A stretch of 64,000 nucleotides of DNA, taken from positions 124,001 to 188,000 of the forward strand of contig CAJYIW010000024.1 in the NCBI GenBank assembly GCA_913775095.1, in the 5' to 3' direction. Every line of letters starts with the position of its first letter. The first letter of the stretch is position 1. The stretch comes from an uncultured Siphonobacter sp. GTDB taxonomy: Bacteria; Bacteroidota; Bacteroidia; Cytophagales; Spirosomataceae. Under the pieces are notes generated by a model. That model saw nothing but the letters and a program-made list of their open reading frames with translations. It was not told the origin of the DNA and did not search any database. Shown piece by piece: positions 12,516 to 31,909 of the stretch. The position numbers were made by a program, and so were the translations under genes.

Positions 12516-13408
12516 TGCTGCAATCCTTTCAATATTTTTCGATTTACTTTCAGAATTGTCCCGTGCTTGTGTCCCTCCGGAACGCTCACGTCTGCTTTAG
12601 TAAAACTTTTGAAGTCTTTCGTCTGAACGGCTTCGTAGGTTTTCGTGCGATAGGAATCGAAGTAAATCAACCAGTTATCTTTTACTTTCACTACTGAGGG
12701 ACCTTCCGTAAACGGTTCGGTAAAGGCTTGGGAAACGTCGGTATAAGGTCCGGTGGCCCGTTTGCCAAAGGCGACTTTAAGATTCCGGTTCGGACGGGTA
12801 TTATCCTTCAGAACGAGCACATAGTCTTCTTTTTTACGCTTCACGATAACCGCATCAATCACACTAAAGGCCGGATCCAGGAAAAGCTGCGTCGGCGAGA
12901 AGGTTTTAAAATCGTAGGTCGTGGTGTAATACATCCGGTGGTTATTATCCTCGTCCTCCACCCCTCTCGCAAAGCGATGCGGAATGGTCGAGGCCCAGAT
13001 GATGACAAACTGACCCGTTTCATCGTCCATGAATACCTCCGGGGCCCAAACGTTTACGGTGGCCGCTTCGTGCTCCATGACGGGTAGAAATCGTTGTTCC
13101 GACCAGTGAATGAGATCTTTGGAACTGGCATAGCCGAAGCCTTTATCACCCTTCCAGCTACAGGTCCAGACCAGGTGAAACGTACCGTCTTTTCCCTGCA
13201 CCATCGACGGATCCCGCATGACTTTCTGCGTACCAATTTCGGGCTTCAGCAGGACTTTATTCAGGTCGTTCCAGTGATAGCCGTCCTTGCTGTACAGCAT
13301 CCGTAAACCTTCATTGGCCGGTTCGTGAAAAGAGGTGAACAGATACGTATCTTTTGCACAGGAACCCAGGCATAACGAAAGTCCGGCATAAAGAGCTAGC
13401 TTCCTCAT
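12512..13408 (-). CDS. GH43-like five-bladed propeller lipoprotein
   Basis: 298 residues. The N-terminus has a lipobox (LCLGSC, Cys17), so the protein is lipid-anchored. MRDPSMVQ (64-71) and VNVWAPEVFMD (118-128) are the classic GH43/clan F Asp-Pro and WAPE segments. GH43 proteins are mostly alpha-L-arabinofuranosidases, beta-xylosidases or galactan exo-enzymes; arabinose removal fits the cluster. The ATG overlaps the stop of the GH140 gene by 4 nt, and its own stop overlaps the next start by 4 nt, giving a tightly coupled three-gene block. Activity is not proven, because many short GH43-like proteins are unassigned. Confidence 0.75.
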   Translation of the reverse strand: MRKLALYAGLSLCLGSCAKDTYLFTSFHEPANEGLRMLYSKDGYHWNDLNKVLLKPEIGTQKVMRDPSMVQGKDGTFHLVWTCSWKGDKGFGYASSKDLIHWSEQRFLPVMEHEAATVNVWAPEVFMDDETGQFVIIWASTIPHRFARGVEDEDNNHRMYYTTTYDFKTFSPTQLFLDPAFSVIDAVIVKRKKEDYVLVLKDNTRPNRNLKVAFGKRATGPYTDVSQAFTEPFTEGPSVVKVKDNWLIYFDSYRTKTYEAVQTKDFKSFTKADVSVPEGHKHGTILKVNRKILKGLQQ

Positions 13409-14808
13409 AATTTATCAATGACCAGCACCCAGTCGTTTCCGTCCTTCGGCTCTCCCGGCGGGTTGAATTCCTGCACGCCCTGATTGCTTACCTCACCGAT
13501 TTCCGTCGTTTTTCCATCTCTTGGGCTATACCAGGAAGCCTTGACTTTCTCGCCCGGAATTGTACCCATGTTGAGTTTGAAGTTCCGGCCCGTGTAGGTG
13601 TACACCAGAACATAATCGTTGCCGCGACTGGCCGTGAGGTAATTGTATTTTTCCCCCTGATCGGCTACGAGCGACTGATCAGGGACACGGTCAAAGTAAG
13701 ATTTGGACAGTAACAGATTTTTCAGATGCACCATCTGCCCCGCCCCTTCGACGTTGATGGCTTTATCCCAGGTTAATTTCGGACCATAGGAGCTGCCCGA
13801 CGTATCATCCGTGCGGTGCATTTGCATAACTTCGTTATCACCGTAGGTGTATCCAAAGGCTCCGGCCAGTACCGACCAGTACCCATAGCGACGCACATCC
13901 GCCGCCGTCCAGCGGGGTTGAGTTACGTCGTGTAAGCCGTGCGGAATGCCCTCGTAGGAAGGTTCGCCATCAATGACGGGTTTGACGGGTTTCAGGGCAT
14001 AATCGGCCTGAATGAAACGCCAGTTATCTTCGCCATAGTGATACTTATCGTTTCTGGACGTATCCTGAGCGTAGTTCCGGTGACCGGACTGCACCATGTT
14101 GAAGTCCATCCATTTTTCGGCGTGGAACCAGTCGGAAGAGGTGTATCGGCCACGAGGGTGATACGTAATGAGGTGGTTGGGATCTTTCTCGCGAAGGGTC
14201 TGACCAATGGCCTGCCATACCTCCAGTCCGTCGCTGCCCTTGATGTCACCGCCGTTTAACCAGATGATGTTTTTACGGTCTTTATACCGATTGGCGAGGA
14301 ATTCGGCGAAGAGTTTTGCATCCTCGGGTTTTACTTTTCCTGACTTCACATTCGATCCCCAGATCGGAACCAGAGCCATGTAGATTCCTTTTTCAGCCGC
14401 TTTGTCTACGACGTAATCCACATGATTCCAAAAATCGTATTCTTCGGGTTTATCGGGATTGTCCCCGTTTTCTACCCGCGTCGTAGCGACGTTTTTATTG
14501 ACCAGTGCCGAATCGCCGTAGACGTTTTTAGCCCCCAGTGTGTGCAACACCATCACCTGAATGACGTTGAAGCCTTTTTTCCGACGGTCTTCCAGATACG
14601 TATCGGCCTCTTCACGAGTGAGTTTTGTAAATAATAACCAGCCGGTATCGCCGAGCCAGAAAAACGGCTCATTCTCTGCTTTCGTAGCCAGAAACCGACC
14701 GTTTTCGGATACTTTTAACAGACTCAGTTCTTTGGGTTTTTCTTCTTTTTGCTGACAGGCCCAGCAGGCCGCCACCACGCTCAGAAAGAGCCCTATTTTT
14801 TTAGTCAT
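13405..14808 (-). CDS. Apiosidase-like glycoside hydrolase (DUF4038, GH140 type), lipoprotein
   Basis: 467 residues with a lipobox-like N-terminus (VVAACWAC, Cys18). The DUF4038 barrel starts at NGRFLATKAENEPFFWLGDT (36-55) and includes KGFNVIQVMVLH (78-89) and NIIWLNGGDIKG (180-191). Asp188 in NGGD and Glu282 in VIDGEPSYEG sit in the positions expected for the catalytic Asp/Glu pair. A C-terminal beta-sandwich (about 395-467) matches the putative collagen-binding domain seen with DUF4038. GH140 enzymes hydrolyse the D-apiose link that ties RG-II side chains to the galacturonan backbone. Family membership is good; apiose specificity is inferred but strengthened by the pathway genes at 21953-31909. 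Confidence 0.8.
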   Translation of the reverse strand: MTKKIGLFLSVVAACWACQQKEEKPKELSLLKVSENGRFLATKAENEPFFWLGDTGWLLFTKLTREEADTYLEDRRKKGFNVIQVMVLHTLGAKNVYGDSALVNKNVATTRVENGDNPDKPEEYDFWNHVDYVVDKAAEKGIYMALVPIWGSNVKSGKVKPEDAKLFAEFLANRYKDRKNIIWLNGGDIKGSDGLEVWQAIGQTLREKDPNHLITYHPRGRYTSSDWFHAEKWMDFNMVQSGHRNYAQDTSRNDKYHYGEDNWRFIQADYALKPVKPVIDGEPSYEGIPHGLHDVTQPRWTAADVRRYGYWSVLAGAFGYTYGDNEVMQMHRTDDTSGSSYGPKLTWDKAINVEGAGQMVHLKNLLLSKSYFDRVPDQSLVADQGEKYNYLTASRGNDYVLVYTYTGRNFKLNMGTIPGEKVKASWYSPRDGKTTEIGEVSNQGVQEFNPPGEPKDGNDWVLVIDKL

Positions 14809-15141
14809 GGACTAAGGTTTTTAAATCAGTAAATGGTTTAGAGCCTGATCATTTCCCGTTTTTACCGGGCAGTCATCTTAGTAGAGACGCCAACTATCTG
14901 GGTCTCCCTTACACAAGATTTTGGCCCTAAACGGAGCGTCAGGGCCATTTTTCAAACGTAGAGCAGGAAAGACATTCGTACGTTATGATAACTTATCATA
15001 GTTCTGTACGATACTGTCCTGGGAGGGCGTCACCGAAGCAGCCGATGGGTTGAAATTTTTTAGAAGTTTTTTACTGAAACTGCTCCCAGTGTTCGGTCAA
15101 AGAACGCCCCTGGAACGATAGATGAGGCTTTTTAGTGACCC

Positions 15142-15254
15142 CTCCTGTCATCCCAAGTGAAACGAGGGACCTTACCGGACGCTTCCATTACTCGCCAGCA
15201 GGAAAGTATAACCCAAGCCTAAGTAAGGTCTCTCCCTACGGTCGAGATGACAGG
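15142..15254. repeat. 113-bp MITE-like repeat, copy 1
   Basis: Begins CTCCTGTCATCCC and ends GATGACAGG, so the termini are inverted. Inner inverted segments GACCTTAC and GTAAGGTC are also present. The CTGTCATCC...GATGACAG ends resemble a repeat class common between genes in Bacteroidota genomes. Confidence 0.8.
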
Positions 15255-15292
15255 TAAGCGGACTGATTCATGTACCAATCTGACCCAAGCTA

Positions 15293-15405
15293 CTCCTGTC
15301 TTCCTGAGTGAAACGAGGGACCTTACCGGACGCTTCCACTACTCCCCAGCAGGAAAGTACCTCCCAAGCCTAAGTAAGGTCTCTCCCTACGGTCGGGATG
15401 ACAGG
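15293..15405. repeat. 113-bp MITE-like repeat, copy 2
   Basis: A second copy of the 15142-15254 element in the same orientation, same length and with few differences, 38 nt further on. No open frame or transposase is inside, so any movement would need a protein supplied from elsewhere. Confidence 0.8.
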
Positions 15406-15452
15406 GATGTAGCTTTAACTTAGCCATGCTAACTTCCCGAAGGCTTTGCCGT

Positions 15453-15472
15453 GGCTGGTGTCTCCACCAGCC
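15453..15472. repeat. GGCTGGTG hairpin after SusD
   Basis: A perfect 8-bp stem (GGCTGGTG/CACCAGCC) with a 4-nt loop, starting 12 nt past the SusD stop. The same hairpin occurs at 31011-31030 in the other orientation, and a looser version occurs inside the tandem repeat at 54962-55360. Confidence 0.65.
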
Positions 15473-15483
15473 ACCAGCCTATA

Positions 15484-16935
15484 TCAATTATACCCCGGAT
15501 TCTGCGTGATGACAGAATTTTGCTGGAGCACCGTCAAAGGTATCGGAGCGATCAGTCGTTGCTGGGTAGCGGCTTTACCTTTGGCCGTCAGGACGGGAAT
15601 GGCCCGGCTCGTCCGTTTGAGGTCAAACCAGCGGTGAAACTCCAGAGCCAGCTCCACCCGTCGCTCGTGTTCCAGAGCCAGAGGTACGGAATTGTATCGG
15701 GCGGGATAATTCGCCGTACCGTACGCGGGTAAGCCTACCCGGGCACGCACCTGATTCAGGTACGTCGGGTCATCCGTAGCTTCCGTTAGTAATAACAGGG
15801 CATCGGCGTACCTCAGAACCACAAAATTACTGATTCCCAACACCTTACCCGTAGTTACGGGCGTAGTTTTGTCATTCCATTTTTTAGGAAACCGAACGGC
15901 CTGAAACACCCCTTTGGCATCGACATACCCGGTATCAATACTGGCCGTTCGGCGAGGGTCGCCCGATTCGAATTCATTCCACAAGTCATTGGTTACCTGA
16001 TTAATGCCACCGCCAATGTAACCCGTGTAACTCACCGCCGGGAAGAAGGTCTGGTAGTATTCGCTGAACGGCGTCGTGGGTGACCCACCCAGAAACTGAA
16101 TCTCAAAAATGGATTCGCTGGTATTTTTGTTCGCATTCGACCAGAGTGAGGCGTATGACGAAACGAGCGAATATTGTTTGCTGTCCACCACTTCTTTCAG
16201 TACGCGGGCGGCGTTTGTTTTGTCTCCCTGAGCCAGATACACTTTGCCCAACAGCGTCTTGGCCGCTCCCTGCGTGGGTTTTCCTTTGGCCGTGGCCGAA
16301 GCCAGGGGGAGGTTATCCGCCGCGTATTGCAAGTCCGTCAGAATCTGTTTGTACACATCCGCCTGAGCCGTGCGGGCATAGGTATAGCTTTCCGCCGCCG
16401 TAATGGGCGTCAGCACCAGTGGAATATCGCCCCAGGTTTGCACCATGTTGAAGTAATACAGGCCCCGCAGAAACTGCATCTGAGCCCGGATAGACTTCTT
16501 GTAATCCTCATCCAGCGTGGCTCCTTCCAGTTTCTGAATGACGATATTCACGTTATACAGAGCCGAGTAATACGTTTGCCAGAAGGTGTAGTTGATCGTA
16601 TTGGAGGAATTGATGCTGTAATCCCGATAGGCCCATTTATCGGCCTGAATCCCGGCTACCGCATTCAGCGTTACGTTATCCGACTGAATTTCTCCCGCGT
16701 AGGAAACCGGGCCTTCCGGACCATACACGGAGTACAGCGTGGCCATGGCGGCATTGGCGGCCAGATCAAAATCAGCGGTGGTTCGGTAAAAATTTTCGGA
16801 GTTGGCATTGGAAATGGGAGCCAGATCCAGAAAGGAACTCTTACAGCCCGTCGTCAGGGTAAGCATACCGGCGGTGACGAGGATTGCTTTCAGGCCGTTT
16901 ACTACTCGATTATTTATTGTCTTTTTCATCGTCAA
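15484..16935 (-). CDS. SusD/RagB family outer-membrane glycan-binding lipoprotein (PUL 1)
   Basis: 483 residues with lipobox LTTGC (Cys31). The SusD N-terminal helical region starts with SSFLDLAPISNANSENFYRT, and the TPR-like pattern RAQMQFLRGLYYFNMVQTWGDIPLVL (about 148-173) is a family hallmark. The C-terminal region ends with ELALEFHRWFDLKRT and IPLTVLQQNSVITQNPGYN, as in nearly all SusD proteins. It binds oligosaccharide at the cell surface and forms the lid of its SusC partner, encoded 7 nt upstream. It fixes Region A as a polysaccharide utilisation locus. Confidence 0.96.
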   Translation of the reverse strand: MTMKKTINNRVVNGLKAILVTAGMLTLTTGCKSSFLDLAPISNANSENFYRTTADFDLAANAAMATLYSVYGPEGPVSYAGEIQSDNVTLNAVAGIQADKWAYRDYSINSSNTINYTFWQTYYSALYNVNIVIQKLEGATLDEDYKKSIRAQMQFLRGLYYFNMVQTWGDIPLVLTPITAAESYTYARTAQADVYKQILTDLQYAADNLPLASATAKGKPTQGAAKTLLGKVYLAQGDKTNAARVLKEVVDSKQYSLVSSYASLWSNANKNTSESIFEIQFLGGSPTTPFSEYYQTFFPAVSYTGYIGGGINQVTNDLWNEFESGDPRRTASIDTGYVDAKGVFQAVRFPKKWNDKTTPVTTGKVLGISNFVVLRYADALLLLTEATDDPTYLNQVRARVGLPAYGTANYPARYNSVPLALEHERRVELALEFHRWFDLKRTSRAIPVLTAKGKAATQQRLIAPIPLTVLQQNSVITQNPGYN

Positions 16936-16942: not shown

Positions 16943-19900
16943 TTAGAAGTCAGCTCTGATACCAAACGTGATCACCCGGGGCAATGGATACGATCCATAA
17001 TCGACCCCAATCATGGAACCGGAAGGGAAGCTGTTGTTACCCGTGCTGCCAATGGTTCCGGTTTCAGTGCTGATGGAGTTGTAGTTCGTCGGGCGGTACG
17101 TCGTGTTTTCAGGATCAATGTTGCGATACTTGCTGAAGAGGAATACGTTTTCCGCATTCACGTACACGCGAGCCGAACGAACGGGCGTCTTTTGCAGCAG
17201 GCTCGTGGGTAAGGCATAGGATACCCGAATGTTTTTCACCCGCAGGAACGACGCATCTTCTACCCAGTAACTGGAGAATTTTTCCTGTAAGCCTTTGGGC
17301 GAAACCGTGGGTTTAAAGTGCTTGCCATCACCCGGATCGCTCTCGGATCTCCAGTAGTTAGTCAGGTCTTCGTAGAAATTCCGGCCGGCATTCCAGATGC
17401 CCAGGTAACGAATGTTCTGGTTCACAATTTCGCCGCCGTAGGAACCCTGCAACAGGAACGACAGATCGAAGCCTTTGTAACTGAAGGTGTTCGTCATGCC
17501 GGCAATAAAATCGGGCTGGTAGTTCCCAATCGTGGTCTGATCGTCGGTCGTGATTCTGCCGTCACCGTTCACGTCGCGAATGCGGGGATCGCCCGGCGTG
17601 GTGCTGGCATCGTGGGCGTAGGCATCGATTTCAGCCTGATTTTTGAAAACGCCGTCAAAGACATAACCGTAGAAATTCGAGATCGGCTGACCAATTTCCG
17701 TTTTCACGTTTACCACGTATTCCGTGTAGATGATGGGAGCTCCCGAAGGCCCGAGTTTCAGTACTTTGTTGCGGTTGAGCGAGAAGTTCAAATCCGTCGT
17801 CCAGCTGAAGTTACCTACGACGTTTTTCGAGTTAATGGCCAGTTCAAAACCCCGGTTCCGCATTTGCCCGATGTTGGTTAACTGCGAAGAGAACCCGGTA
17901 ATGTCGGGTACGGGCAGGTTCAGCAACATGTCTTTCGTTACCGTGTTGTAATAATCCGCCGTGATGTTCAGTCGGTTGTTAAACAGACCCAAATCAATAC
18001 CGATGTCAAACTGGTTGTTTTTCTCCCAGCGTAAATCCGGGTTCGCAATGTTCGTGTTCCGCAACCCATTGGCAATGGCCCCATTCGAAACATAGTTACT
18101 GCTGCCGAGTAAACTCACCGCCCCGTAATTCGGAATCTGGTTGTTACCCGTCATCCCGTAACTGGCCCGCAATTTCAGGTTACTGATGGCCTTCACGTCA
18201 TTGAGAAAGGCTTCATCCGAAACCAGCCAGCCCGCCGAAACCGAAGGGAAGGTTCCCCAGCGGCTGTTCCGGCCAAAGCGTGAACTGGCATCCCGGCGAA
18301 CGGCCGCCGTCAGGAAGTATTTGTTCTTGAAGTTATAGTTGGCCCGAGCCAGATACGACAGCATCGACCATTCGGAGGCAATCGTACTACCCGCCGAAAC
18401 GGTACCAGCATTCAGGGTTTCGACCAGATCGTTCGGGAAATTATTGGCTCCTACCGTGGCGTACTCGTCCCGTTGCTTCTGAGCGGTGTACCCCACCAGA
18501 GCCGTCAGTTTATGATCGCCAAACTGCTTGTCGTAATTCAGGGTGTTTTCACTCAGCCAGTTCAGTGAATAGGTAGAGAAGTTTGTGGCCGCCGCATCCA
18601 GTACGGATGAATAGCCAAAGCCCTGCTTCGCGACGCGGTAACTGTCCCCGCGGTTATTGAAGAGGTTGGCATTGATACTCGTCCGGAATTTCAGATCGTC
18701 GAGGATGTTGAATTCCAGATACGCCGTTCCGAGGGTATTAAACGATCGGTTTTTCTTGTGATAAAAGCGGGTTAACGAATACGGATGCCAGAGCACCAGA
18801 TCGTTGAAAGGCACAAATTTGTTCCAGACGGAATTGGGGTCCAGCGGGCCGAGGTTACCGTTTTCGTTGTATTTGGGATAAATCGGCGTGCTCTGCAAAC
18901 CCAGACTGATGACGTCACTCTTGCCCTGCGTCCCTTCGGTCCGGTCCGTGATGCCCGTGATACCGAGGTTCGCTCCAATCGTCAGTCGTTTGGAAACGGC
19001 ACTTTTAATATTCGAACGAATCGTCAGCCGCTTGTAATAGTTGTTATCCAGCACGGCATCCTGATCCAGGTAAGCCGTGGAGAACAGGAACTGCGTTTTG
19101 TCCGTTCCGCCCGAAACCGACACCTGAGCGTTCCGTAAGGGAGCTTCGCGGTACATGACGTCCTGCCAGTTGGTACCGTTGCCAAACATCTGGCGATTGT
19201 TGATGAAATCATCCGGAATGCGGTACGAAGCCGTCCGGGCTGAGTTAGGATCGGTTGCTTTCCCTCCGTTGGCAACCCAGCCGTTGTTCTTGGCCGCTAC
19301 GTAATAATCAATGTATTGCTGGGCATTCATCAATTTGATCTGTTTCGCCACTTTCTGAATGCCGTATTCGAAGGTCGCACTAACCGTGGTTTTGCCCGCC
19401 TGACCCTGCTTGGTCGTCACCAGAATCACCCCGCTGGATCCCCGTGAACCGTAAATGGCCGCCGAGGAAGCATCTTTCAGTACTTCTACCGATTCAATGT
19501 CCTGCGGGTTAATCATGTTGAGATTGAAGTTTTCCAGCGGAACGCCGTCCACCACAAACAGCGGGTTGGTTCCGGCCGTGATGGAGTTCACGCCCCGAAT
19601 CCGGATGATGGGCGAAAGACCGGGAGCTCCCTGAGCCTGGGTAATGTTTACACCCGGCATTTTACCCGCCAGCGACTGCGTCACGTTACTGAACGAACGG
19701 TCTTTGTACTGATCGTACCCGATGGACGTGACCGCTCCGGTTACGGCCCGTTTGCTTTGGGTACCATATCCAACCACGACCACTTCATCCAGAGCCTTGT
19801 TATCGGCCGTCAGACTCACGTTCAGTTCGGTCTGATTACCCAGGGCCACTTCTTTGGTCTGGTAGCCTACGTAACTGAAAATCAGCACGGGGTTTTCACC

Positions 19901-20092
19901 TGTAACTTCCATCTGAAACGTTCCGCTGGTGTTGGTGGTGGTGCCACGTTGCGTTCCCTTCAGCAGGATACTCACGCCGGGTAGCAGCTCGCTTTCGCTG
20001 GCTCCGGTCACCTTACCGCTTACCTGTCGGGTTTGAGCCTGGGCCGTCAGTAGCCCCAGCACTCCCATTAGTACCCATAAAATCTGCTTCAT
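16943..20092 (-). CDS. SusC/RagA family TonB-dependent outer-membrane transporter (PUL 1)
   Basis: 1049 residues. Signal peptide (to TAQAQ), then a carboxypeptidase-regulatory-like domain (RQVSGKVTGASESELLPGVSIL, about 22-95), the SusC TonB-box region DEVVVVGYGTQSKRAVTGAV, a plug domain with VDGVPLENFN and ESVEVLKDASSAAIYGSRGSSGVILVTTK, and a C-terminal beta-barrel ending in a terminal aromatic (FGIRADF). It imports glycan fragments across the outer membrane using TonB energy. It is the first gene of its transcription unit: a strong terminator (20262-20308) separates it from the preceding catabolic operon. Confidence 0.97.
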   Translation of the reverse strand: MKQILWVLMGVLGLLTAQAQTRQVSGKVTGASESELLPGVSILLKGTQRGTTTNTSGTFQMEVTGENPVLIFSYVGYQTKEVALGNQTELNVSLTADNKALDEVVVVGYGTQSKRAVTGAVTSIGYDQYKDRSFSNVTQSLAGKMPGVNITQAQGAPGLSPIIRIRGVNSITAGTNPLFVVDGVPLENFNLNMINPQDIESVEVLKDASSAAIYGSRGSSGVILVTTKQGQAGKTTVSATFEYGIQKVAKQIKLMNAQQYIDYYVAAKNNGWVANGGKATDPNSARTASYRIPDDFINNRQMFGNGTNWQDVMYREAPLRNAQVSVSGGTDKTQFLFSTAYLDQDAVLDNNYYKRLTIRSNIKSAVSKRLTIGANLGITGITDRTEGTQGKSDVISLGLQSTPIYPKYNENGNLGPLDPNSVWNKFVPFNDLVLWHPYSLTRFYHKKNRSFNTLGTAYLEFNILDDLKFRTSINANLFNNRGDSYRVAKQGFGYSSVLDAAATNFSTYSLNWLSENTLNYDKQFGDHKLTALVGYTAQKQRDEYATVGANNFPNDLVETLNAGTVSAGSTIASEWSMLSYLARANYNFKNKYFLTAAVRRDASSRFGRNSRWGTFPSVSAGWLVSDEAFLNDVKAISNLKLRASYGMTGNNQIPNYGAVSLLGSSNYVSNGAIANGLRNTNIANPDLRWEKNNQFDIGIDLGLFNNRLNITADYYNTVTKDMLLNLPVPDITGFSSQLTNIGQMRNRGFELAINSKNVVGNFSWTTDLNFSLNRNKVLKLGPSGAPIIYTEYVVNVKTEIGQPISNFYGYVFDGVFKNQAEIDAYAHDASTTPGDPRIRDVNGDGRITTDDQTTIGNYQPDFIAGMTNTFSYKGFDLSFLLQGSYGGEIVNQNIRYLGIWNAGRNFYEDLTNYWRSESDPGDGKHFKPTVSPKGLQEKFSSYWVEDASFLRVKNIRVSYALPTSLLQKTPVRSARVYVNAENVFLFSKYRNIDPENTTYRPTNYNSISTETGTIGSTGNNSFPSGSMIGVDYGSYPLPRVITFGIRADF

Positions 20093-20261
20093 AGTAAAGT
20101 ATCAAGTTAAGAATGAGGTAAAAATATTTCGAAAAGATTCGATTAATTTTCTTTTATTTTCTTTTCAACGAATGTACGGGCAAATAATCTTCAATTCAAA
20201 ATATCTAATTCAAAAAATTGTATATTTTTTTATAAAAAAATTACTAAAAAGATGATAAAAG
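20093..20261 (-). promoter_or_regulatory. AT-rich leader/promoter region of susC (PUL 1)
   Basis: This strongly AT-rich stretch between the terminator and the susC start is the only upstream DNA available for PUL 1 transcription. I searched for the Bacteroidota -7 box TAnnTTTG on the minus strand and found no exact match, so the promoter is placed by context only. Confidence 0.35.
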
Positions 20262-23467: not shown

Positions 23468-24473
23468 TTTTCGAATTCGATTTATCGATGATTACTGCCA
23501 GTAGAATCACCATTCCTTTCACCACCTGCTGCCAGAAGGGTGACACGTCGAGCAGTACCAGTCCGTTATTCAATACGCCAATGATGACCGCTCCCTGCAC
23601 CGTTCCCAGGATACTGCCGCGACCGCCGGAGAGCGACGTGCCCCCAATGACCACTGCCGCGATGGAATCGAGTTCGTAACTAATCCCCGCGTTGGGCTGG
23701 GCCGAATCGAGCCGGGAGGTGACTAATAACCCGCCCAGAGCAGCCAGTCCCCCGGCAATGGTATACACCAGAATTTTGACGTAATTCACTTTGATCCCCG
23801 ACAAGCGGGAAGCACTTTCATTCCCGCCAATGGCGTAGATGTAGCGGCCCAGCCGGGTTTTGCTCGTCATTACTACGGCAAAGACTACTACGATTAAGGA
23901 CACCCAGACGGGAACGGGAATGCCTAAAAACCAGCCCGTACCGAGGTAAAGGAAGGTATCACCCAGGCCACTGATCGGAAATCCTTTGGTCCACAACATC
24001 GTCAGGCCACGGGCGATGGTTAACATGGATAAGGTAGCGACGAAGGGCGGAACGTTGAAGCGGGTAATGATCCAGCCGTTGAAACTGCCTAATAAGGCTC
24101 CAACCAGTAACCCGACTACGACGGCTCCCAGAATGGTGAACCCGATGTAGGTATTCTGAGCGGGCCATTCGATGCCGTTTTTGAGTAAGCCCGCCGTGAT
24201 GGCTCCGCACAGGGCCAGGACCGATCCGACCGACAGATCAATTCCGGCGGTTAAGACCACCAGTGTCATGCCGACGGACAGGCAGATGTTGACGGAAATC
24301 TGCCGCAGGACGTTCCAGCCGTTGGCCACGGTCAGGAATTTGTCGGAAACCAGACTGATCGCGACGCACAGAATAAGGAGGGCGATGAGCGACTGAAATT
24401 TTACCCAGTACGATTGCCCCAGCGGCACCAGACGCGGCTCGGTTCGTTGATTGACAGAAGCTTCTTTGATCAT
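23460..24473 (-). CDS. RbsC-like sugar ABC transporter permease
   Basis: 337 residues, strongly hydrophobic, about 8-10 membrane spans. The family signature GMTLVVLTAGIDLSVGSVLAL lies at about 68-88, and the second conserved block LDSIAAVVIGGTSLSGGRGSILGT lies near the C-terminus, as in ribose/galactose-type permeases (BPD_transp_2). It forms the inner-membrane channel for the sugar bound by the lipoprotein at 26678-27637. Start ATG at 24473, 55 nt after the ATPase gene; its stop overlaps the kinase start by 8 nt. Confidence 0.94.
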   Translation of the reverse strand: MIKEASVNQRTEPRLVPLGQSYWVKFQSLIALLILCVAISLVSDKFLTVANGWNVLRQISVNICLSVGMTLVVLTAGIDLSVGSVLALCGAITAGLLKNGIEWPAQNTYIGFTILGAVVVGLLVGALLGSFNGWIITRFNVPPFVATLSMLTIARGLTMLWTKGFPISGLGDTFLYLGTGWFLGIPVPVWVSLIVVVFAVVMTSKTRLGRYIYAIGGNESASRLSGIKVNYVKILVYTIAGGLAALGGLLVTSRLDSAQPNAGISYELDSIAAVVIGGTSLSGGRGSILGTVQGAVIIGVLNNGLVLLDVSPFWQQVVKGMVILLAVIIDKSNSKND

Positions 24474-24528: not shown

Positions 24529-26025
24529 TTATACCGATGGCGGAATGGCCGCTTTTAATAGTTCGTCTTCCGTGACATCGCAGGCCGGGAATTCGGCCGT
24601 GAGTTTTCCTTCGGCCAGCACCAGAATCCGATCCGACAGAGCCAGAATTTCAGGAATTTCGGAGGAAACGACGACAATGCCCAGCCCTTCGGCAGCCAGT
24701 TGCAGGATGAGTTTATAGATTTCGCTCTTGGCGTGAATGTCAATGCCCCGCGTGGGTTCGTCGAGCAACAACAGCTGAGGTTTGGTAGCCAGCCACTTGC
24801 CCAGTACGATTTTCTGCTGGTTCCCGCCACTCAGGTTTTTCGCTTTCTGCTGAGCGGAAGAGGTTTTGATATTCAGCTCTTTAATGTAATGTTTGGCCAG
24901 AGCCTGTTCGGACTGATCATCGAGCAGACCGTAACTTTCGAGGGCTTCCAGCGTGGTCAGGCTCATGTTGGCTGCAATGTCCATGCCTAATACCAATCCG
25001 TTTTTCTTACGGTCTTCGGGGACCAGAGCCATGCCGATCCGAATGGCATCGGAAGGGGTTTTGATACTGACAGGTTCATCATTCATCGACAGCTGGCCCC
25101 GAACGTTACCGTTGTGTAAACCAAAAATGGCCTCCAGTAACTCCGTGCGTCCGGCTCCCATTAAACCGAAGATTCCAACGACTTCACCCTTCCCTACTTC
25201 AAACGAAATATTGTCCAGGACGGTAGCCCGGCCCTTTAGCAGTGAAATTCCTTCGACTTGTAACAGTTTTCTGAAACAAGTATCCGTACAAATCCGGCGA
25301 TTCACCTGCACCTCACGACCGACCATTTTCCGGATGAACAGATCGTGGGTCATGTCCTGCATATCCCCGGAATCGACCGTTTGGCCATCGCGTAATACCA
25401 CGAAGCGATCCGCCATGCGGAATAATTCAGCCAGCTTGTGCGAGATATACGCCACGGCTTTGTTGGCCCGCCGCAAGTCTTCAATGACCGAAAACAGCAC
25501 CTCTACTTCCCGGTCGCTGATGGCCGAGGTGGGTTCATCCATGATGATGACTTCCGAATCCCAGAGTAAAGCTTTGGCGATCTCGACGATTTGCTGCTGC
25601 CCGACTTTCAGCTCCGAAATGAGCGTATCGGGACTGACCTTCAGTTGCAGGCGTTCCAGTAGCTCGCTGGTTCGCTTTTTCATTTTAGCCTGATCAAGCA
25701 AGCCCAGAGAATTGGTTAACTCCCGTCCCAGAAATATATTTTCCGTAATACTCAAATACGGAATCAGATTGAGTTCCTGATGAATGATGGAAATGCCCGC
25801 CTCCTGAGCTTCCTTCGGGTTGGCAAACCGAACCGTCTCGCCTTTCCAGATCAGCTCTCCTTCGTAATCCTGATACACCCCCGAGAGCACATTCATCAGC
25901 GTGGATTTCCCCGCTCCGTTTTCGCCCACAATGGCCGTTACCTGCCCCAGCGGCAGGCTCAGATTGACCTGATTCAGGGCCGTAACTCCGGCAAATCGCT
26001 TGGTTATGTTTTGAGCTATGAACAC
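24529..26025 (-). CDS. RbsA-like sugar ABC transporter ATPase (two nucleotide-binding domains)
   Basis: 498 residues, duplicated ABC cassette. Domain 1: Walker A GENGAGKST (34-42), signature region LKVGQQQIVEIAKAL, Walker B VIIMDEPTSA. Domain 2: degenerate Walker A GLMGAGRTE, intact signature NLSGGNQQKIVLGKWL, Walker B LLLLDEPTRGID. The degenerate second P-loop is normal for RbsA, MglA and AraG proteins. It powers import together with the RbsC-like permease 55 nt downstream and is preceded by the DUF2291 gene at a 31-nt distance. Confidence 0.95.
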   Translation of the reverse strand: MFIAQNITKRFAGVTALNQVNLSLPLGQVTAIVGENGAGKSTLMNVLSGVYQDYEGELIWKGETVRFANPKEAQEAGISIIHQELNLIPYLSITENIFLGRELTNSLGLLDQAKMKKRTSELLERLQLKVSPDTLISELKVGQQQIVEIAKALLWDSEVIIMDEPTSAISDREVEVLFSVIEDLRRANKAVAYISHKLAELFRMADRFVVLRDGQTVDSGDMQDMTHDLFIRKMVGREVQVNRRICTDTCFRKLLQVEGISLLKGRATVLDNISFEVGKGEVVGIFGLMGAGRTELLEAIFGLHNGNVRGQLSMNDEPVSIKTPSDAIRIGMALVPEDRKKNGLVLGMDIAANMSLTTLEALESYGLLDDQSEQALAKHYIKELNIKTSSAQQKAKNLSGGNQQKIVLGKWLATKPQLLLLDEPTRGIDIHAKSEIYKLILQLAAEGLGIVVVSSEIPEILALSDRILVLAEGKLTAEFPACDVTEDELLKAAIPPSV

Positions 26026-26056: not shown

Positions 26057-26674
26057 TTACTTCAGCACGCGTAAGGCAATGGGCATTACCTCTACTGAAT
26101 GAAGATCCGGGAACTTCTGGTTCAGCTCGATCGCTCCGGCAAACTCTACGGTATCTCCTTTTTTTACTGCTTTCCGAAACGCAGGAACTACCTCCGTGCG
26201 AATGATCTTATTCAGCTCCGCCGAAACGTTATTCAGGTCCATCGTATTTGAAAATTCGCTCAGATTAATCTGACCGGAGGCATCCCGCACGGCGTTCCCG
26301 AAGACGTATTCCGTCGCAATCCGAACGGTGTCCGATCCTACCTGAATGGCAACGCTGGTTTCGTTCACCTCCCGAACCACGCCCTTTCCCTTGCTGAGAA
26401 AATACTTAATGTTCCCCAGGCCCAGCGAATGGCCGTATTCCTGAAAGGTCTTCTCTTTTTGCTGCTGAAGGTGCGTGAGCAACTGTTCGGTATTCGTCGC
26501 TTTTGCCAGGGCAGGCGTCAGTTTGTGCTGCCAGAAGGTTCGGGCAAAACCGGAAGCATCAAACCCTTTAGAAGCCGTCTGTACCTCATCCAGTTTTTTG
26601 ATATACAGGGAGTTATACCCCAGGATTCCGAACGTCAGGAGGGCCAGCAAAAGCCGAATGATTTTCTTTTTCAT
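26057..26674 (-). CDS. DUF2291 protein associated with sugar ABC transporters
   Basis: 205 residues. An N-terminal membrane segment (IIRLLLALLTFGILGYNSLYI) has no lipobox Cys, so it is likely a membrane-anchored periplasmic protein. Residues 28-205 match the DUF2291 pattern (FDASGFARTFWQHKLTPAL near 38; EYGHSLGLGNIKYFLSKGKGVV near 80; DLNNVSAELNKIIRTEVVPAF near 145). DUF2291 genes recur inside rbsABC-like operons for pentoses and polyols; their function is unknown. It follows the binding protein by 3 nt. Confidence 0.82.
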   Translation of the reverse strand: MKKKIIRLLLALLTFGILGYNSLYIKKLDEVQTASKGFDASGFARTFWQHKLTPALAKATNTEQLLTHLQQQKEKTFQEYGHSLGLGNIKYFLSKGKGVVREVNETSVAIQVGSDTVRIATEYVFGNAVRDASGQINLSEFSNTMDLNNVSAELNKIIRTEVVPAFRKAVKKGDTVEFAGAIELNQKFPDLHSVEVMPIALRVLK

Positions 26675-26677
26675 GGC

Positions 26678-27637
26678 TTAGTCCTGTTTACCGTAAGCTC
26701 CGTAATGGCTTACGTTTTTCTGATTCACCAGCTCAACTGCCACGGGCATTTTCCTGGGAAATTCCCGACGGCCTTTAAAGTATTCATCCGCAAACTGAGC
26801 GGCAGTATAGGCCATGACTTCGGGATACTGCATGCCCGTCGCCAGAATTTTCTGATGCTGAATGGATTCGACGACGTCCTGGGCTCCGTCGAAGCCAAAA
26901 ACCTTGATTTGATCGGCCTTTCCCGAAGCTACCAAAGCCTGATAGGCCCCCATCGCCATGGCATCGTTACCGCAAAAAACCGCGTCAATATCGGGGTGAG
27001 CCTGTAGCATGGATTCCAGCACTTCCATGGCCTTATTCCGATCAAAATCAGCACTTTGCTGGGCCACCATTTTCAGATTCGGGTAATAATCCACGACGCT
27101 GTGAAAGCCTTTGGAACGCATCCAGGTGTTATTATCACCCACGAGTCCGAGAATCTCTACGTATTTACCTTTTTTGTGCAGGATATCCACGAAGTAACGG
27201 GCAATGGAAACGCAGCCCGAGTAACTGTCCGAGAGAATTTGAGACGTAGCTCCGTCCGTGGTATTCACCTCCCGGTCCATGCAAAAGACGGGGACTTCCG
27301 CGGCCTTTGCTTTGTTCACATTTACCACCGAACCATCGGCATCCGTCGGGTTGAACAGGATGGCATCGAAGCCCGAAGCAATGGCATTTTCGAAATGATC
27401 GGTTTCCAGAGCGGTATTATTCTGAGAATCGAAGATCTTGGATTCGTAACCTAATTCCTTCGCCCTGGCCGCCGCCCGATCCGCCAGAAACACGAACCAG
27501 GGATTGTTCAGCGTCGAAACGACAATGGCTATTTTTCGGCCTTCATCCGTTTTTTGTCTGGTTTTACAGCCAAATAGTGCTATTAAAAAAACAGACAAAA
27601 AAAGAAAGCTCTTCAGCTTTTTCCTGTACATCATCAA
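26678..27637 (-). CDS. RbsB-like periplasmic sugar-binding lipoprotein
   Basis: 319 residues with lipobox LFGC (Cys24), so tethered to a membrane. Typical type-I periplasmic binding fold: KIAIVVSTLNNPWFVFLADRA (35-55), a GFDAILFNPTDADG hinge (about 90-103), VFCMDREVNT, and DAVFCGNDAMAMGAYQAL (about 218-235). The VSTLNNPWF and NPTDADG segments are those of ribose-class binding proteins. It captures the monosaccharide for the RbsA/RbsC pair; the ligand is inferred to be apiose or a related branched or short sugar from the neighbouring enzymes. Confidence 0.92.
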   Translation of the reverse strand: MMMYRKKLKSFLFLSVFLIALFGCKTRQKTDEGRKIAIVVSTLNNPWFVFLADRAAARAKELGYESKIFDSQNNTALETDHFENAIASGFDAILFNPTDADGSVVNVNKAKAAEVPVFCMDREVNTTDGATSQILSDSYSGCVSIARYFVDILHKKGKYVEILGLVGDNNTWMRSKGFHSVVDYYPNLKMVAQQSADFDRNKAMEVLESMLQAHPDIDAVFCGNDAMAMGAYQALVASGKADQIKVFGFDGAQDVVESIQHQKILATGMQYPEVMAYTAAQFADEYFKGRREFPRKMPVAVELVNQKNVSHYGAYGKQD

Positions 27638-27676: not shown

Positions 27677-28636
27677 TTACCGATGTAACAACGTCAACGC
27701 AGCTTCCGAAATGCCGCGATCCGTGAGGCCATAATGACTGAAAATTTCAGCCTGTGAACCGGTTACCGTGTACTCGTCCGGAATACCCATAATCCGGAAC
27801 GGAACCTGTCGCTGGTTTTGCAGTAAGAAAGACGCACAAGCCTCCCCCAGCCCCCCATTCACGCTGTGTTCTTCGACCGTAATCATCGGCATACCACTAC
27901 CGGCAATTTCATCTAACAGACTTGTATCCAGCGGCTTAATCGTATGCATGCTCACAACTGTTACCTTCAACTGATGTTCTCGTTCCAGAATTTCTGCGGC
28001 CTGTAGAGCGGGATATACCGTTTCGCCCGTGGCAATAATGGCGAGGTCCTTCCCTTCCCGAATGACTCGTCCTTTACCGAATTCAAAGGGTGTGGAACTG
28101 TCAAGTAAAGGCATTGGCTTTTTACCAAACCGCAGGTACACCGGCTGTTCCAGCAAGGCCGCCTGACGGATGGCTTCTTCGGTTTCGTAGCTGTCCGCCG
28201 GAGCGACCACGATGAGGTTGTGAATGGCCCGCAGAACCGCAAAGTCGTGCAGGCTGTGGTGCGTGGAACCCAAGGCTCCGTAACTGACTCCGGCACTGAT
28301 GCCAATGAGATTCACGGGATTATCCGAATAAGCTACGTCGTTCTTGATCTGTTCGAGGGCCCGGGCGGTCAGAAAACAGGCCGGAGAAACGGCGAATACT
28401 TTCTTACCCGTCGACGCCAGTCCGGCGGCTACGCCCACCAGGTTTTGTTCGGCAATGCCCACTTCGACGATTTGTTGCGGGAATTTCAGTCCAAAAGGCA
28501 CCAGTTTCCCCGATCCCCGCGAATCACTCGTCACTACTACAATGTCTTTATCTGTCTCAGCCAGTTGCTGTAAGGTTCCCGAAAAAACGTCCAGGTTGGC
28601 TTTCGTGTCCGTGAGTACCGAAATCGTTTCTAACAT
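27677..28636 (-). CDS. Transketolase C-terminal subunit (pyrimidine and C-terminal domains)
   Basis: 319 residues covering the second half of a transketolase. The thiamine-pyrimidine domain carries VEVGIAEQNLVGVAAGLAS, whose Glu activates the cofactor, and the SYGALGSTHHSLHDFAVLRA loop; the last third is the C-terminal transketolase domain (MPMITVEEHSVNGGLGEA). It works as a heteromer with the N-terminal subunit encoded 31 nt upstream. Split transketolases occur in specialised sugar pathways, including apulose-4-phosphate transketolase. The housekeeping role is less likely because the gene is inside a sugar import and kinase operon. Confidence 0.92.
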   Translation of the reverse strand: MLETISVLTDTKANLDVFSGTLQQLAETDKDIVVVTSDSRGSGKLVPFGLKFPQQIVEVGIAEQNLVGVAAGLASTGKKVFAVSPACFLTARALEQIKNDVAYSDNPVNLIGISAGVSYGALGSTHHSLHDFAVLRAIHNLIVVAPADSYETEEAIRQAALLEQPVYLRFGKKPMPLLDSSTPFEFGKGRVIREGKDLAIIATGETVYPALQAAEILEREHQLKVTVVSMHTIKPLDTSLLDEIAGSGMPMITVEEHSVNGGLGEACASFLLQNQRQVPFRIMGIPDEYTVTGSQAEIFSHYGLTDRGISEAALTLLHR

Positions 28637-28667
28637 AGTTCTGTTTCAGGTTAGTGTCTTGTCATCA

Positions 28668-29504
28668 TCAGGCACTCAACGCGGCCAAAGCCTGTTTCAG
28701 CTCCTCTACCGCCGTCGAATATTGCTCCTGACTGGGTACGCCGTGGTGCCATTTCAGCTGATTTTCCATGTAACTCACGCCTTTTCCCTTCACGGTGTGA
28801 GCAATCACCAGACTGGGTTTACCGGGCTGAAAAGGTACCTGATCGAAGGTATGTTTCAACTGCTCCAGATCGTGCCCATCCACGTGCCGCACTTCCCAGC
28901 CAAAGGCTTCAAATTTCCGGTCGAGCGGATCGGTATTCATTACGTCCGAGGTAGAACCCGTAATTTGCAGGGAGTTTTTGTCGATAATCGCACAGAGGTT
29001 ATCGAGTTTATAATGAGCCGCCGACAGAGCCGCCTCCCAGTTGGAACCTTCGGGTAATTCGCCGTCGCCCAGCAGCGTAAACACGCGGTATTTTTTATCG
29101 TCCATCTTCGCGGCCAGTGCCGCCCCCACACTCAGGGAAAGTCCGTGACCGAGGCCGCCCGTGTTCTGCTCTACGCCCGCTACCTTCCGGGTCGGGTGAC
29201 CGATGTAATGCGACTGATACTGACACAGCGTTTCCAGATCGCTTTCCGGGAAAAACCCCTGATCGGCCAATACCACAAACAGAGCCTCGACGGTGTGTCC
29301 TTTACTCTGAATGTACCGATCCCGGTCGGGCGACTGAAAAGTATCCGGGCTCACCTGTAAGGTATGGTTGTATAACACATTCAGAATGTCGATGCAGGAT
29401 AAACTCCCGCCGGTATGGCCGGCTCTGGCATTGACAATGTACTTTAAGATCTTCTGGCGGTATTCTACCGATTTACGCTTGAGTACTTGAATATCAGTCA
29501 TCAT
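28668..29504 (-). CDS. Transketolase N-terminal subunit (thiamine diphosphate-binding)
   Basis: 278 residues, the first half of transketolase. Landmarks are ARAGHTGGSLSCIDILNVLYN (27-47), RDRYIQSKGH, and the diphosphate/Mg-binding motif GDGELPEGSNWEAALSAAHYKLDNL ending with IIDKN, as in all GDG...N cofactor sites. It sits 41 nt after the isomerase gene and 31 nt before its partner. Together the subunits would transfer a two-carbon ketol unit; in the inferred pathway the donor is apulose 4-phosphate and the by-product dihydroxyacetone phosphate. Confidence 0.92.
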   Translation of the reverse strand: MMTDIQVLKRKSVEYRQKILKYIVNARAGHTGGSLSCIDILNVLYNHTLQVSPDTFQSPDRDRYIQSKGHTVEALFVVLADQGFFPESDLETLCQYQSHYIGHPTRKVAGVEQNTGGLGHGLSLSVGAALAAKMDDKKYRVFTLLGDGELPEGSNWEAALSAAHYKLDNLCAIIDKNSLQITGSTSDVMNTDPLDRKFEAFGWEVRHVDGHDLEQLKHTFDQVPFQPGKPSLVIAHTVKGKGVSYMENQLKWHHGVPSQEQYSTAVEELKQALAALSA

Positions 29505-29545
29505 TCTTCGTCATTAGTCGTTTTAGGTATCGGTTGAAGTTTCTG

Positions 29546-30955
29546 TTATTCTTCGCCAAAATGCAGTACGTCCCAACCCATGTAGTTACCCAGTCCTTCT
29601 TTCAGTACGGCAGCCGTTCGGGACGCGTTCATCACGACGTGGTGCTCGAATCCGTTCTGGCAGATGTACCGCATGAGTTTCTGTAAATCAGGAATTTCGG
29701 CGACGGCCCGGTTGCCAAACGTGCGAAGCTCATCATCCGTTAACCGACCTTCCCCGACGTAGGCTTTAATGATTCCCCTGCTGTCGTCGGTACTGATCCG
29801 ACCGTAGGTTAAGGGCATCGCTGGCGTGCGGCCATCGAGGGCTCCGTAGGTATTGTGTTCCCCCACGGTAGTGCCCAGAATCGGAGCCGTACTGATCTCT
29901 ATATCCGGCAGAAATGATTTTGCCCAGTTGCCACAGTGGAATAACACGCATTTGTTATCGTCCTGGGCGTAGTTGTTATTCCAGTCCACCAGAGCACTCG
30001 GCGAGCCCGAAGCCAGTTGTAAGGCATACATACTCAGCGTTCCGGTTACGTCTACTTCGCAGCCACTCGGCATCATGTTCTCGCTCATGATACTCATGCT
30101 CGTACAGACGTTGCAGCCGTAGTTCTGCTGAACGGAAGTCCAGCACTGAATCGCCGTGGCATCCAGTTCGTTAGCCGCCACAAAGTCAGCCAATACCACA
30201 TCCAGTTTGGCCATTTGCACCAGAGCTTCCTCGGGCGTTCGGCCTATTTTGGCGTAAGAAGTGATTTTATCGATTCGCTCCCTGACCGAAGCATCGTGTT
30301 TCGTTAATTTATTGGCATTGCCCAGAATCTCGGAGAGATCGACTGTTACGACGGAAATCCCGTTGCGTTGCAGGATTTTTTCACTATAACGAACCGTATT
30401 AAATCCGCCGGGACGGGCCCCAATCGCTCCGATTCTTACCTTGCGTAAGCCTTTGACGACCCGACAAACGCCCACAAAATCAAGCAGATCCTTCTGAAAG
30501 CTGGGATCAGTGGGACGTACCACGTGCTTAGTCGTCAGCGTGTATTTAATACCAAACTGATAGAGATTATTACAGGCGGAAATCTTGCCGCACCAGGCAT
30601 CCCGGCGACGGGCCAGATCCAGTTTATCCAGATCGTCGGGATAGGCCTGAATCAATACCGGGACATTCAGGTTGGCGAGCTTCAGCGTTTCGGCAATGCC
30701 GCGTTCGTCACCGAAGTTGGGTAATACTACCAGTACGCCCATGATTTCGTCCGCGTGTTTCTTGAATAAATCCGCACACCGACGGGCTTCCTGAAACGTT
30801 TCGACACCGCCTAACTTGGTTTCTTCCGTAGTTAATAAGATCGGATTGATATGCAACTGCTTCAGTACTTCCAGAATCTCAACTCGGGCATCGGCCACCA
30901 GTGAATCAGGGAAAAAATCACGGTTACCAATGATGACTCCTAAGGTATAGTTCAT
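29546..30955 (-). CDS. L-fucose/L-arabinose isomerase-family protein (candidate D-apiose isomerase)
   Basis: 469 residues, cytosolic (no signal). The fold is that of the FucI/AraA group: an N-terminal Rossmann-like half (YTLGVIIGNRDFFPD; GVLVVLPNFGDERGIAETL) and a C-terminal half with metal-site-like segments (NVCTSMSIMSENMMPSGCEVDVTG near 283-306; KCVLFHCGNWAKSF near 334-347). It is first in the catabolic operon, directly after the DeoR gene. FucI itself is about 590 residues, so this belongs to the shorter uncharacterised branch. The proposed reaction is aldose-ketose isomerisation, best guess D-apiose to D-apulose; the substrate is inferred from kinase and transketolase neighbours. Confidence 0.8.
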   Translation of the reverse strand: MNYTLGVIIGNRDFFPDSLVADARVEILEVLKQLHINPILLTTEETKLGGVETFQEARRCADLFKKHADEIMGVLVVLPNFGDERGIAETLKLANLNVPVLIQAYPDDLDKLDLARRRDAWCGKISACNNLYQFGIKYTLTTKHVVRPTDPSFQKDLLDFVGVCRVVKGLRKVRIGAIGARPGGFNTVRYSEKILQRNGISVVTVDLSEILGNANKLTKHDASVRERIDKITSYAKIGRTPEEALVQMAKLDVVLADFVAANELDATAIQCWTSVQQNYGCNVCTSMSIMSENMMPSGCEVDVTGTLSMYALQLASGSPSALVDWNNNYAQDDNKCVLFHCGNWAKSFLPDIEISTAPILGTTVGEHNTYGALDGRTPAMPLTYGRISTDDSRGIIKAYVGEGRLTDDELRTFGNRAVAEIPDLQKLMRYICQNGFEHHVVMNASRTAAVLKEGLGNYMGWDVLHFGEE

Positions 30956-31010
30956 GCTACGTTGTTAGTAAAATACGTTCGAGGTAAAACGTTACTGGCT
31001 TCCTAGTGGT

Positions 31011-31030
31011 GGCTGGTGAGGACACCAGCC
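31011..31030. repeat. GGCTGGTG hairpin between deoR and the isomerase gene
   Basis: 8-bp stem with a 4-nt loop (AGGA), opposite in orientation to the copy at 15453-15472. A second hairpin, CCGAACGC/GCGTTCGG, lies at 31095-31118 nearer the deoR stop. Neither has a T-tract on the minus strand, so read-through from deoR into the operon stays possible. Confidence 0.6.
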
Positions 31031-31147
31031 ACGGCTGTTGGGCAGTGAGGTAAACTGTGGCTTTCTCCGTTTGGAAAGCACAATATTCTCCTTCCCGAAC
31101 GCCCGTGACAGCGTTCGGTTTATGATAAATCCATACTATTCAGGGAC

Positions 31148-31909
31148 TTAAGCGATGATCAGTTCAATCTCATTGTCATGAAACACCTGCTTGTGTTTTT
31201 CTTCGATTCCATCGTCGGTAATGATGTAATCAATGAGCGACAAGGCTCCCAGACTGGCGAAGGCACTCTTGCCTATTTTCGTGGAATCGGCGACCAGATA
31301 CGTGGTATCGGCCGCGTCAATCATAGCTTTTTTCACCACCAGATCGCTGATACTCGGATACGTTAACCCGGATTTCAGCGAAATGCCCGCCGTGGCCAAA
31401 AACAGTTTTTGTACGTTCAGACCCTTGAAAAAATCGGCTGCTTTCTGCCCGGTTAAGGATAAGGTCGGCGGTTTGAATTCCCCGCCCGTCATAATGACTT
31501 CGATCCCCGGTTCGGCTCCCAGCATCAGGGCGATATTCAGAGCATTGGTAATGACCGTCAGGTTCTTAATGCCTTTCAGCTGCTTGGCAATTTCAGTGGT
31601 GGTCGATCCCGAATCCAGGATGATGGTATCGCCACTTTCGATGTACTCCAAGCATTTTCGTCCGATCAGTTCTTTCTTGTCAATGTGTTCCTGATTGCCG
31701 AGTGAAAAGGTACGCACCTGATTTTCGACGTTTTTCAGAAAAGCTCCGCCGTGTTCTCGAATTACTAATCCGTCTTTTTCGAGTTTCTCCAGATCCTGCC
31801 GGATCGTTACTTCGGTTACCTTGAAAAGTTTCGACAGATCAATGACTTTGGCCGAGCCATCTTCTTTCAGTAATTCAAGTATTTTATCTCTTCGTTGATT
31901 GGCCAGCAT
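31148..31909 (-). CDS. DeoR/GlpR-family transcriptional regulator
   Basis: 253 residues, standard length. The winged HTH is RRDKILELLKEDGSAKVIDLS then FKVTEVTIRQDLEKLEKDGL (6-50), followed by REHGGAF; the sugar-phosphate sensor domain carries the DSGSTTTEIAKQL motif and ends with VFHDNEIELIIA. These repressors usually sense a phosphorylated sugar intermediate, which would fit the kinase product of the operon. It lies directly upstream of the catabolic operon, same strand, 192 nt away. Its own leader has a 10-bp inverted repeat (31924-32004). Confidence 0.93.
   Translation of the reverse strand: MLANQRRDKILELLKEDGSAKVIDLSKLFKVTEVTIRQDLEKLEKDGLVIREHGGAFLKNVENQVRTFSLGNQEHIDKKELIGRKCLEYIESGDTIILDSGSTTTEIAKQLKGIKNLTVITNALNIALMLGAEPGIEVIMTGGEFKPPTLSLTGQKAADFFKGLNVQKLFLATAGISLKSGLTYPSISDLVVKKAMIDAADTTYLVADSTKIGKSAFASLGALSLIDYIITDDGIEEKHKQVFHDNEIELIIA

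Follow-up and report, generated by a model that had tools for sequence, protein, structure and literature searches.

A predicted locus for D-apiose release, import and catabolism within a rhamnogalacturonan II-type polysaccharide utilization locus of an uncultured Siphonobacter

Gene content of the locus

The inspection of a 64,000 nt stretch of DNA from an uncultured Siphonobacter sp. (contig CAJYIW010000024.1, positions 124,001 to 188,000; referred to here as the window; source genome, 5.65 Mb) revealed a run of minus-strand genes predicted to release the rare plant sugar D-apiose from pectin, to import it and to degrade it. Profile searches of the open reading frames (ORFs) of the window recovered, at the positions assigned to them, all the genes named in a preliminary description, which had proposed an apiosidase, a transporter and transketolase-type catabolic enzymes to lie side by side. 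The gene order in the minus strand was DeoR, isomerase, transketolase N and C subunits, RbsB, DUF2291, RbsA, RbsC, an FGGY kinase and a protein with DUF5060, DUF4038-like and DUF5605 domains. The intergenic gaps within this operon, counted from the isomerase onward, were of −8 to 55 nt. SusC, SusD and a glycoside hydrolase (GH) of family GH140 succeeded the DUF5060 gene at spacings of 246, 7 and 675 nt. The features are as follows:

31148..31909, minus: DeoR-family regulator, predicted local repressor of the apiose genes (PF00455/PF08220)
29546..30955, minus: predicted D-apiose isomerase, ApsI type (55–56% to enterobacterial cluster isomerases)
28668..29504, minus: transketolase N-terminal subunit, AptA type (50.6% to E. 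coli SE15 AptA)
27677..28636, minus: transketolase C-terminal subunit, AptB type (41.7% to E. coli SE15 AptB)
26678..27637, minus: RbsB-type binding protein with a lipobox-like N-terminus (PF13407)
26057..26674, minus: DUF2291 protein (PF10054; equivalent position in the E. coli apiose cluster)
24529..26025, minus: RbsA-type ATP-binding cassette (ABC) ATPase (41% to the E. coli apiose-cluster ATPase)
23460..24473, minus: RbsC-type permease (43% to the E. coli apiose-cluster permease)
21953..23467, minus: predicted D-apulose kinase, GlpK-like FGGY, Ser/Ser pocket (38.7% to AplK; pocket signature)
20339..21901, minus: DUF5060-DUF4038-like-DUF5605 glycoside hydrolase with a signal-peptide-like N-terminus, candidate second apiosidase (PF16586, PF13204 at 77 bits, PF18310)
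20142..20163, plus: predicted DeoR operator, 50–71 nt upstream of SusC (top motif match in the window)
16943..20092, minus: SusC, TonB-dependent transporter (PF07715, PF00593)
15484..16935, minus: SusD (PF14322, PF07980)
13405..14808, minus: predicted GH140 apiosidase with a lipobox-like N-terminus (PF13204 at 388 bits, plus PF12904)

Catabolic enzymes and importer

A D-apiose degradation I pathway, relying on apsI, aplK, aptA/aptB and a ribose-type ABC transporter, is said to have been described in Pectobacterium and Escherichia by Carter et al. in 2018. The excerpted text of PMC13001218, in which that study is cited, names aplK, aptA and aptB in E. coli SE15, states that D-apiose supports the growth of Pectobacterium and of Escherichia strains, other than SE15, that carry the cluster, but not that of K-12, and indicates that apsI is present in the Pectobacterium cluster and missing from that of Escherichia. 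The SE15 apiose cluster was found to carry a matching ABC/DUF2291 transport set, a kinase and a split transketolase. The window proteins were 50.6% (AptA), 41.7% (AptB), 38.7% (AplK), 43% (RbsC), 41% (RbsA) and 33% (RbsB) identical to their SE15 counterparts, the first two values identifying the split transketolase as one of the AptA/AptB kind. Clusters orthologous to that of SE15 were present in Rahnella, Sodalis and Klebsiella (AplK 70–72%, AptA 78–79% and AptB 73–77% identical); these add an isomerase, absent from SE15, that is 55–56% identical to the window isomerase. It follows by synteny, the Pectobacterium ApsI sequence itself lying outside the comparison, that this extra isomerase would be ApsI, and the window isomerase is assigned to the ApsI type on that basis.

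Like the Pectobacterium/Escherichia system, the window thus gathers in one cluster an isomerase, a GlpK-like kinase, a split transketolase and a ribose-type ABC importer with DUF2291 (RbsB-DUF2291-RbsA-RbsC), the proteins being 33–56% identical. The two differ in the regulator, a DeoR protein in the window versus a ‘sugar-binding transcriptional regulator’ in the E. coli cluster, and only in the window do hydrolases and SusCD genes adjoin the cluster. The comparison with D-apiose cluster proteins that the preliminary description had proposed agreed with an apiose assignment for the isomerase and both transketolase subunits; for the kinase it gave a mixed picture, described below.

A tree of the transketolase N subunit grouped 29 subunits from isomerase operons, AptA and the window protein included, against 15 other transketolases (support 90/73, not starred). 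The genome of the window holds three further transketolase matches, and the enzyme of the operon consequently appears to be a dedicated one, such as a non-standard ketose phosphate would call for. The isomerase was followed through 79 loci, namely the listed matches to exact peptide words of the window protein; there are at least 79, and they lean towards near relatives. The nearest relative among the matches listed is a Siphonobacter metagenome-assembled genome, with an isomerase 97% identical to that of the window. A co-located transketolase was present in 45 of the 79 listed loci. At a Lachnoanaerobaculum locus (L063:9929-15349) the genes after the isomerase and a DUF5060 gene encode an FGGY kinase of a different kind and a class II aldolase, no transketolase being found there; this gene set is perhaps another apiose route. 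Locus L066 opens with the same isomerase-DUF5060 pair.

The kinase is GlpK-like by score (576 bits on NF000756, cut-off 498), and the solved structures nearest to it are those of glycerol kinases; E. coli AplK, too, reaches 490–495 bits on those GlpK-type models. A separate GlpK (764 bits) is encoded elsewhere in the genome of the window. Two pocket columns, to which we take the Gln and Phe of E. coli GlpK to contribute in the glycerol pocket, set the groups apart: they hold Gln/Phe in seven of seven glycerol kinases and Ser/Ser in all 33 distinct operon kinases, among them the window protein and E. coli AplK. This count comprises distinct kinases above 250 bits plus L110 and L111, and omits L112 (wrong ORF), the duplicates L106, L088, L089 and L091, and L108, L109 and L113. 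The kinase neighbours at L045, L063, L066 and L069 fall below the threshold and outside the count; L103 and L104 have two distant FGGY kinases of their own that were counted in neither pocket group. In a rooted tree the window kinase lay in a grade with kinases of Planctomycetota, Desulfobacterota and a spirochaete, the operon kinases of Enterobacterales and Acidobacteriota formed a clade beside GlpK, and L078 stood apart. Judging from the operons of Desulfobacterota, L075 and L079, which combine a window-type kinase with an AptA-type transketolase, both kinase types seem to make one product and to serve one type of transketolase. The concern that the closest characterised homologues might act on other sugars, raised in the preliminary description, holds for the kinase insofar as its closest solved relatives are glycerol kinases, but was not upheld overall: the pocket and partners of the kinase are of the apiose-cluster type, and the transketolase N subunit groups with AptA.

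The RbsB protein scored 347 bits against the structure 2fn8 and 202 bits against 5ibq/4ry0. We take 2fn8 to be a T. maritima protein; 5ibq presumably holds apiose, and 4ry0 and 2fn8 ribose. The importers invoked in the preliminary description are present, but its single import step is better drawn as two, with SusCD predicted to act at the outer membrane and RbsB-RbsAC at the inner membrane.

Hydrolases, regulation and surrounding genes

Apiose is the linking sugar of the side chains of rhamnogalacturonan II (RG-II). The protein encoded at 13405–14808 combines PF13204 with PF12904, the GH140 architecture, and scored 438 bits against the structure of BT_1012 (3kzs/5msy) from B. thetaiotaomicron, with which it shares both domains and the catalytic Asp and Glu. 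These two residues, D188 and E282 in the window protein, were invariant in 13 of 13 sequences; the excerpted text of PMC4032388 names the catalytic Asp and Glu. On sequence grounds the protein is predicted to be an apiosidase. It adjoins apiose catabolic genes, BT_1012 having been compared as a protein and not by locus. A second GH140-type gene occurs outside the locus in the source genome (G000:C17:66198-67169, L001; 418 bits).

The DUF5060 protein aligned with GH140 across the barrel (97.5% probability) and scored 575 bits against 4n0r. Its C-terminus is DUF5605 rather than PF12904, and its invariant residues, Glu265 and Glu342 (11 of 11 sequences), are read as the catalytic pair. Membership in GH140 was rejected because this pair is Glu-Glu instead of Asp-Glu. 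The link to apiose drawn for the hydrolase of the operon in the preliminary description is retained in that the protein is a candidate apiosidase with relatives near the isomerase in four phyla. A GH140 or DUF5060-type gene lay at most 10 kb from the isomerase in 20 of the 79 listed loci, distributed over Bacteroidota, Planctomycetota, Acidobacteriota and Bacillota, although ten of the 20 are from Dyadobacter and amount to about one event. The order in the Phycisphaerae locus L079 was isomerase, DUF5060 gene, both transketolase genes and kinase. Among Bacteroidia genomes, PF13204 exceeded its cut-off in four of the six with the isomerase versus 26 of the 389 without it (Fisher p = 3.7e-4, uncorrected for relatedness); with the genome of the window excluded, it did so in three of five isomerase genomes (p = 0.003, likewise uncorrected).

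A Sde182-type, nucleoside-hydrolase-like protein (PF07632) was encoded in 23 of the 79 listed loci (e.g. L012:13437-14864) and also at L122, L124 and L128; none was found in the genome of the window. In 19 Dyadobacter/Persicitalea loci its gene separates transketolase C from RbsB within the operon, and in Botryobacter, two acidobacteria and one spirochaete it is close to the isomerase. The L012 protein retains a TDIENEPDD stretch resembling a metal site. That the DUF5060-DUF4038-like-DUF5605 (Glu-Glu) and Sde182-type proteins are new apiosidase families, marked by apiose catabolic operons, is a tentative proposal with somewhat less than an even chance of being right. If it is, the Sde182-type apiosidases would have an unrelated, nucleoside-hydrolase-like fold.

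The association of hydrolase and catabolic genes recurs in relatives. GH140 accompanies the catabolic operon in ten Dyadobacter loci too. In five Dyadobacter/Persicitalea genomes, a kinase 65–68% identical to that of the window was located 12–23 kb upstream of the isomerase on one contig (five of five), adjoining a DUF5060 gene in four; SusCD genes lay between kinase and isomerase in all five and GH140 in three. The full DeoR-isomerase-transketolase-ABC-kinase operon is also present in four further Bacteroidia genomes (L121-L124), in which no GH140 or DUF5060 gene was found within ~9 kb of it.

The DeoR protein was 82–99% identical across Bacteroidota isomerase loci, with 43–57 of 55–57 helix-turn-helix residues identical. 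A motif was built from 15 Dyadobacter sites upstream of DeoR (five distinct sequences), picked by a shared word and hence a selection rather than every Dyadobacter locus, none of them from the window; the scan left out regions in which the gene start lay less than 150 nt from, or beyond, the end of the locus. It was found upstream of DeoR in six of six other Bacteroidota loci, and in each none of 100 shuffles reached its score. The top match in the window, at 24.0 bits, was at 20142–20163 in the SusC promoter, the next separate site scoring 8.7. With up to three mismatches the window contained two overlapping matches (chance value, 0.04) and the genome five matches at four places, a backward control giving four. 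In L004, a close relative, the SusC site persists with two mismatches. In the SusC promoters of five relatives, the motif beat all 100 shuffles in two and was reached by 3–5 of 100 in the other three. The apiose genes may perhaps be governed by one switch.

The limits of the locus given in the preliminary description (13405–31909) proved too narrow, because a polysaccharide utilization locus (PUL) of the RG-II type, with a SusC/SusD pair and co-located glycan-degrading enzymes, runs well past them. The GH43-like gene that follows overlaps GH140 by 4 nt and the propeller gene next to it by another 4 nt, and beyond the latter lie an esterase, GH2 and GH78:

12512..13408, minus: GH43/GH32-like hydrolase (PF04616; 4-nt overlap with GH140)
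10695..12515, minus: BT_1020-type N-terminal propeller protein, relative of an RG-II enzyme (PF24067, 399 bits)
9180..10655, minus: SASA-type carbohydrate esterase (PF03629)
6304..9087, minus: GH2 (PF02836)
3328..6078, minus: GH78 alpha-L-rhamnosidase (PF17389)

To the left of the window, on the same strand, are GH78, GH106, GH2 and a GH141-type protein. Upstream of DeoR are DUF6298, a candidate pectate-lyase-like protein (our reading; zero Pfam matches at 0.001), GH20, DUF2264, GH106 and a second SusCD pair. GH140, the BT_1020-type propeller, GH78, GH106, GH2, GH43-like, GH141-type and SusCD genes are presumably common to the PUL described here and the B. thetaiotaomicron RG-II PULs; the present PUL differs in that it also carries genes for ABC-type monosaccharide import and for pentose catabolism. 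The DUF6298 protein (32193–35279) has a 42% identical counterpart near the apiose operon of Phycisphaerae (L079:18570-20523). By eye, an element of ~110 nt whose ends are inverted (CTGTCATC...GACAGG) is present twice, in nearly identical form, in the gap before GH140 (14809–15483); the gap also contains a hairpin-like repeat that recurs between DeoR and the isomerase.

Alternative readings and proposed pathway

Several observations weigh against reading these genes as an apiose locus. The motif in front of the window's own DeoR gene is weak (6.4, reached by 22 of 100 shuffles), which is unexplained, and the scan found none before the GH140, isomerase or kinase genes of the window. Of 395 Bacteroidia genomes, three encode the DUF5060 protein and six the isomerase, and both occur together only in that of the window. 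Of the listed isomerase loci, 34 of 79 show no transketolase in the available stretch; many of these are on short contigs, but 12 are flanked on each side by more than 9 kb. Membership in the isomerase family may therefore not always stand for an apiose route, and the enzyme may serve other routes at those loci. Overall, glycerol kinase is a closer relative of the window kinase than AplK is, and a single clade of all 33 operon kinases was narrowly rejected (approximately unbiased test, p-AU 0.0435); for this reason the Ser/Ser signature is common to both kinase types through retention or convergence. Finally, RbsB is nearest to the T. maritima ribose-binding protein, and a comparison of its pocket residues fails to tell ribose from apiose.

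The operon might serve apiose while SusCD, GH140 and the rest of the PUL form a separate unit that merely adjoins it. The spacings before SusC and GH140, the L121-L124 operons and the lack of a motif upstream of GH140 itself would suit this arrangement, but it is unlikely in view of the SusCD and GH140 genes between kinase and isomerase in the Dyadobacter/Persicitalea contigs and of the motif in the SusC promoter, strongest of the window and above all shuffles in two of the five relatives. An operon for D-arabinose or D-ribose, with an isomerase yielding D-ribulose, a kinase yielding D-ribulose 5-phosphate and an ordinary transketolase, is less probable still. According to the excerpted text of PMC3750489, enzymes for D-arabinose are predicted in the ribose operon of T. 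maritima, an operon that shares the binding-protein type nearest to the window RbsB. As described there, that operon resembles the window in having a ribose-type ABC transporter, a transketolase and two enzymes predicted to act in sugar catabolism, and differs in its predicted substrate (D-arabinose/ribose) and LacI-type regulator, the likeness being one of description and not gene by gene. Against such a function, pentulose-kinase and ribulokinase models gave the window kinase at most 74 bits versus cut-offs of at least 409 (TIGR01315, 74 versus 408.7; NF003154, 64 versus 428); a dedicated transketolase, which D-ribulose 5-phosphate would not require, is co-located in more than half of the listed loci; and the adjacency of GH140 in Cytophagales would be left unexplained.

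The model score and closest structures of the kinase would fit a second glycerol kinase in an operon for another polyol or ketose; this is very improbable, since both pocket residues are Ser, the genome has a separate GlpK, and AplK itself scores nearly as high on such models. The sulfoquinovose transketolase pathway has a negligible probability: the sole NCBIfam match of the isomerase is the sulfoquinovose isomerase (SftI) model NF048012, but at 94 bits against a cut-off of 700, and the isomerase of the Klebsiella apiose-type cluster matches this model weakly too (114 bits). Apiose is by far the best reading of the operon and is very probably its substrate. The joining of release, import and catabolism of apiose in one stretch, put forward in the preliminary description, is supported by gene content, homology, active-site residues, conserved neighbourhood and a shared motif, and it is highly probable that these genes form a locus for releasing, importing and degrading D-apiose inside an RG-II-type PUL.

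As predicted for substrate, reaction order, location and regulation, GH140, and probably the DUF5060 enzyme, would free D-apiose outside the inner membrane, SusCD taking up the glycan or oligosaccharide across the outer membrane. RbsB, probably lipid-anchored, and RbsAC would carry D-apiose over the inner membrane. The isomerase would then convert D-apiose to D-apulose, the GlpK-like kinase would form D-apulose 4-phosphate, and the split transketolase would transfer two carbons to glyceraldehyde 3-phosphate, yielding xylulose 5-phosphate and dihydroxyacetone phosphate. DeoR would repress the catabolic operon and the SusCD genes alike.

The pathway and GH140 are already known; what is added here is their combination in one Cytophagales locus, together with Ser/Ser as a kinase signature, a predicted link between DeoR and SusCD, and two families of candidate hydrolases. 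No description of such a locus was found in the literature searched, which comprised open-licence papers only and does not imply that none has been published. If the assignment is true, Ser/Ser would be a residue signature that tells apulose kinases apart from glycerol kinases, two groups poorly split by annotation models, and two hydrolase families would be named as testable apiosidases. The locus would show how a member of the Bacteroidota recovers apiose after the breakdown of RG-II.

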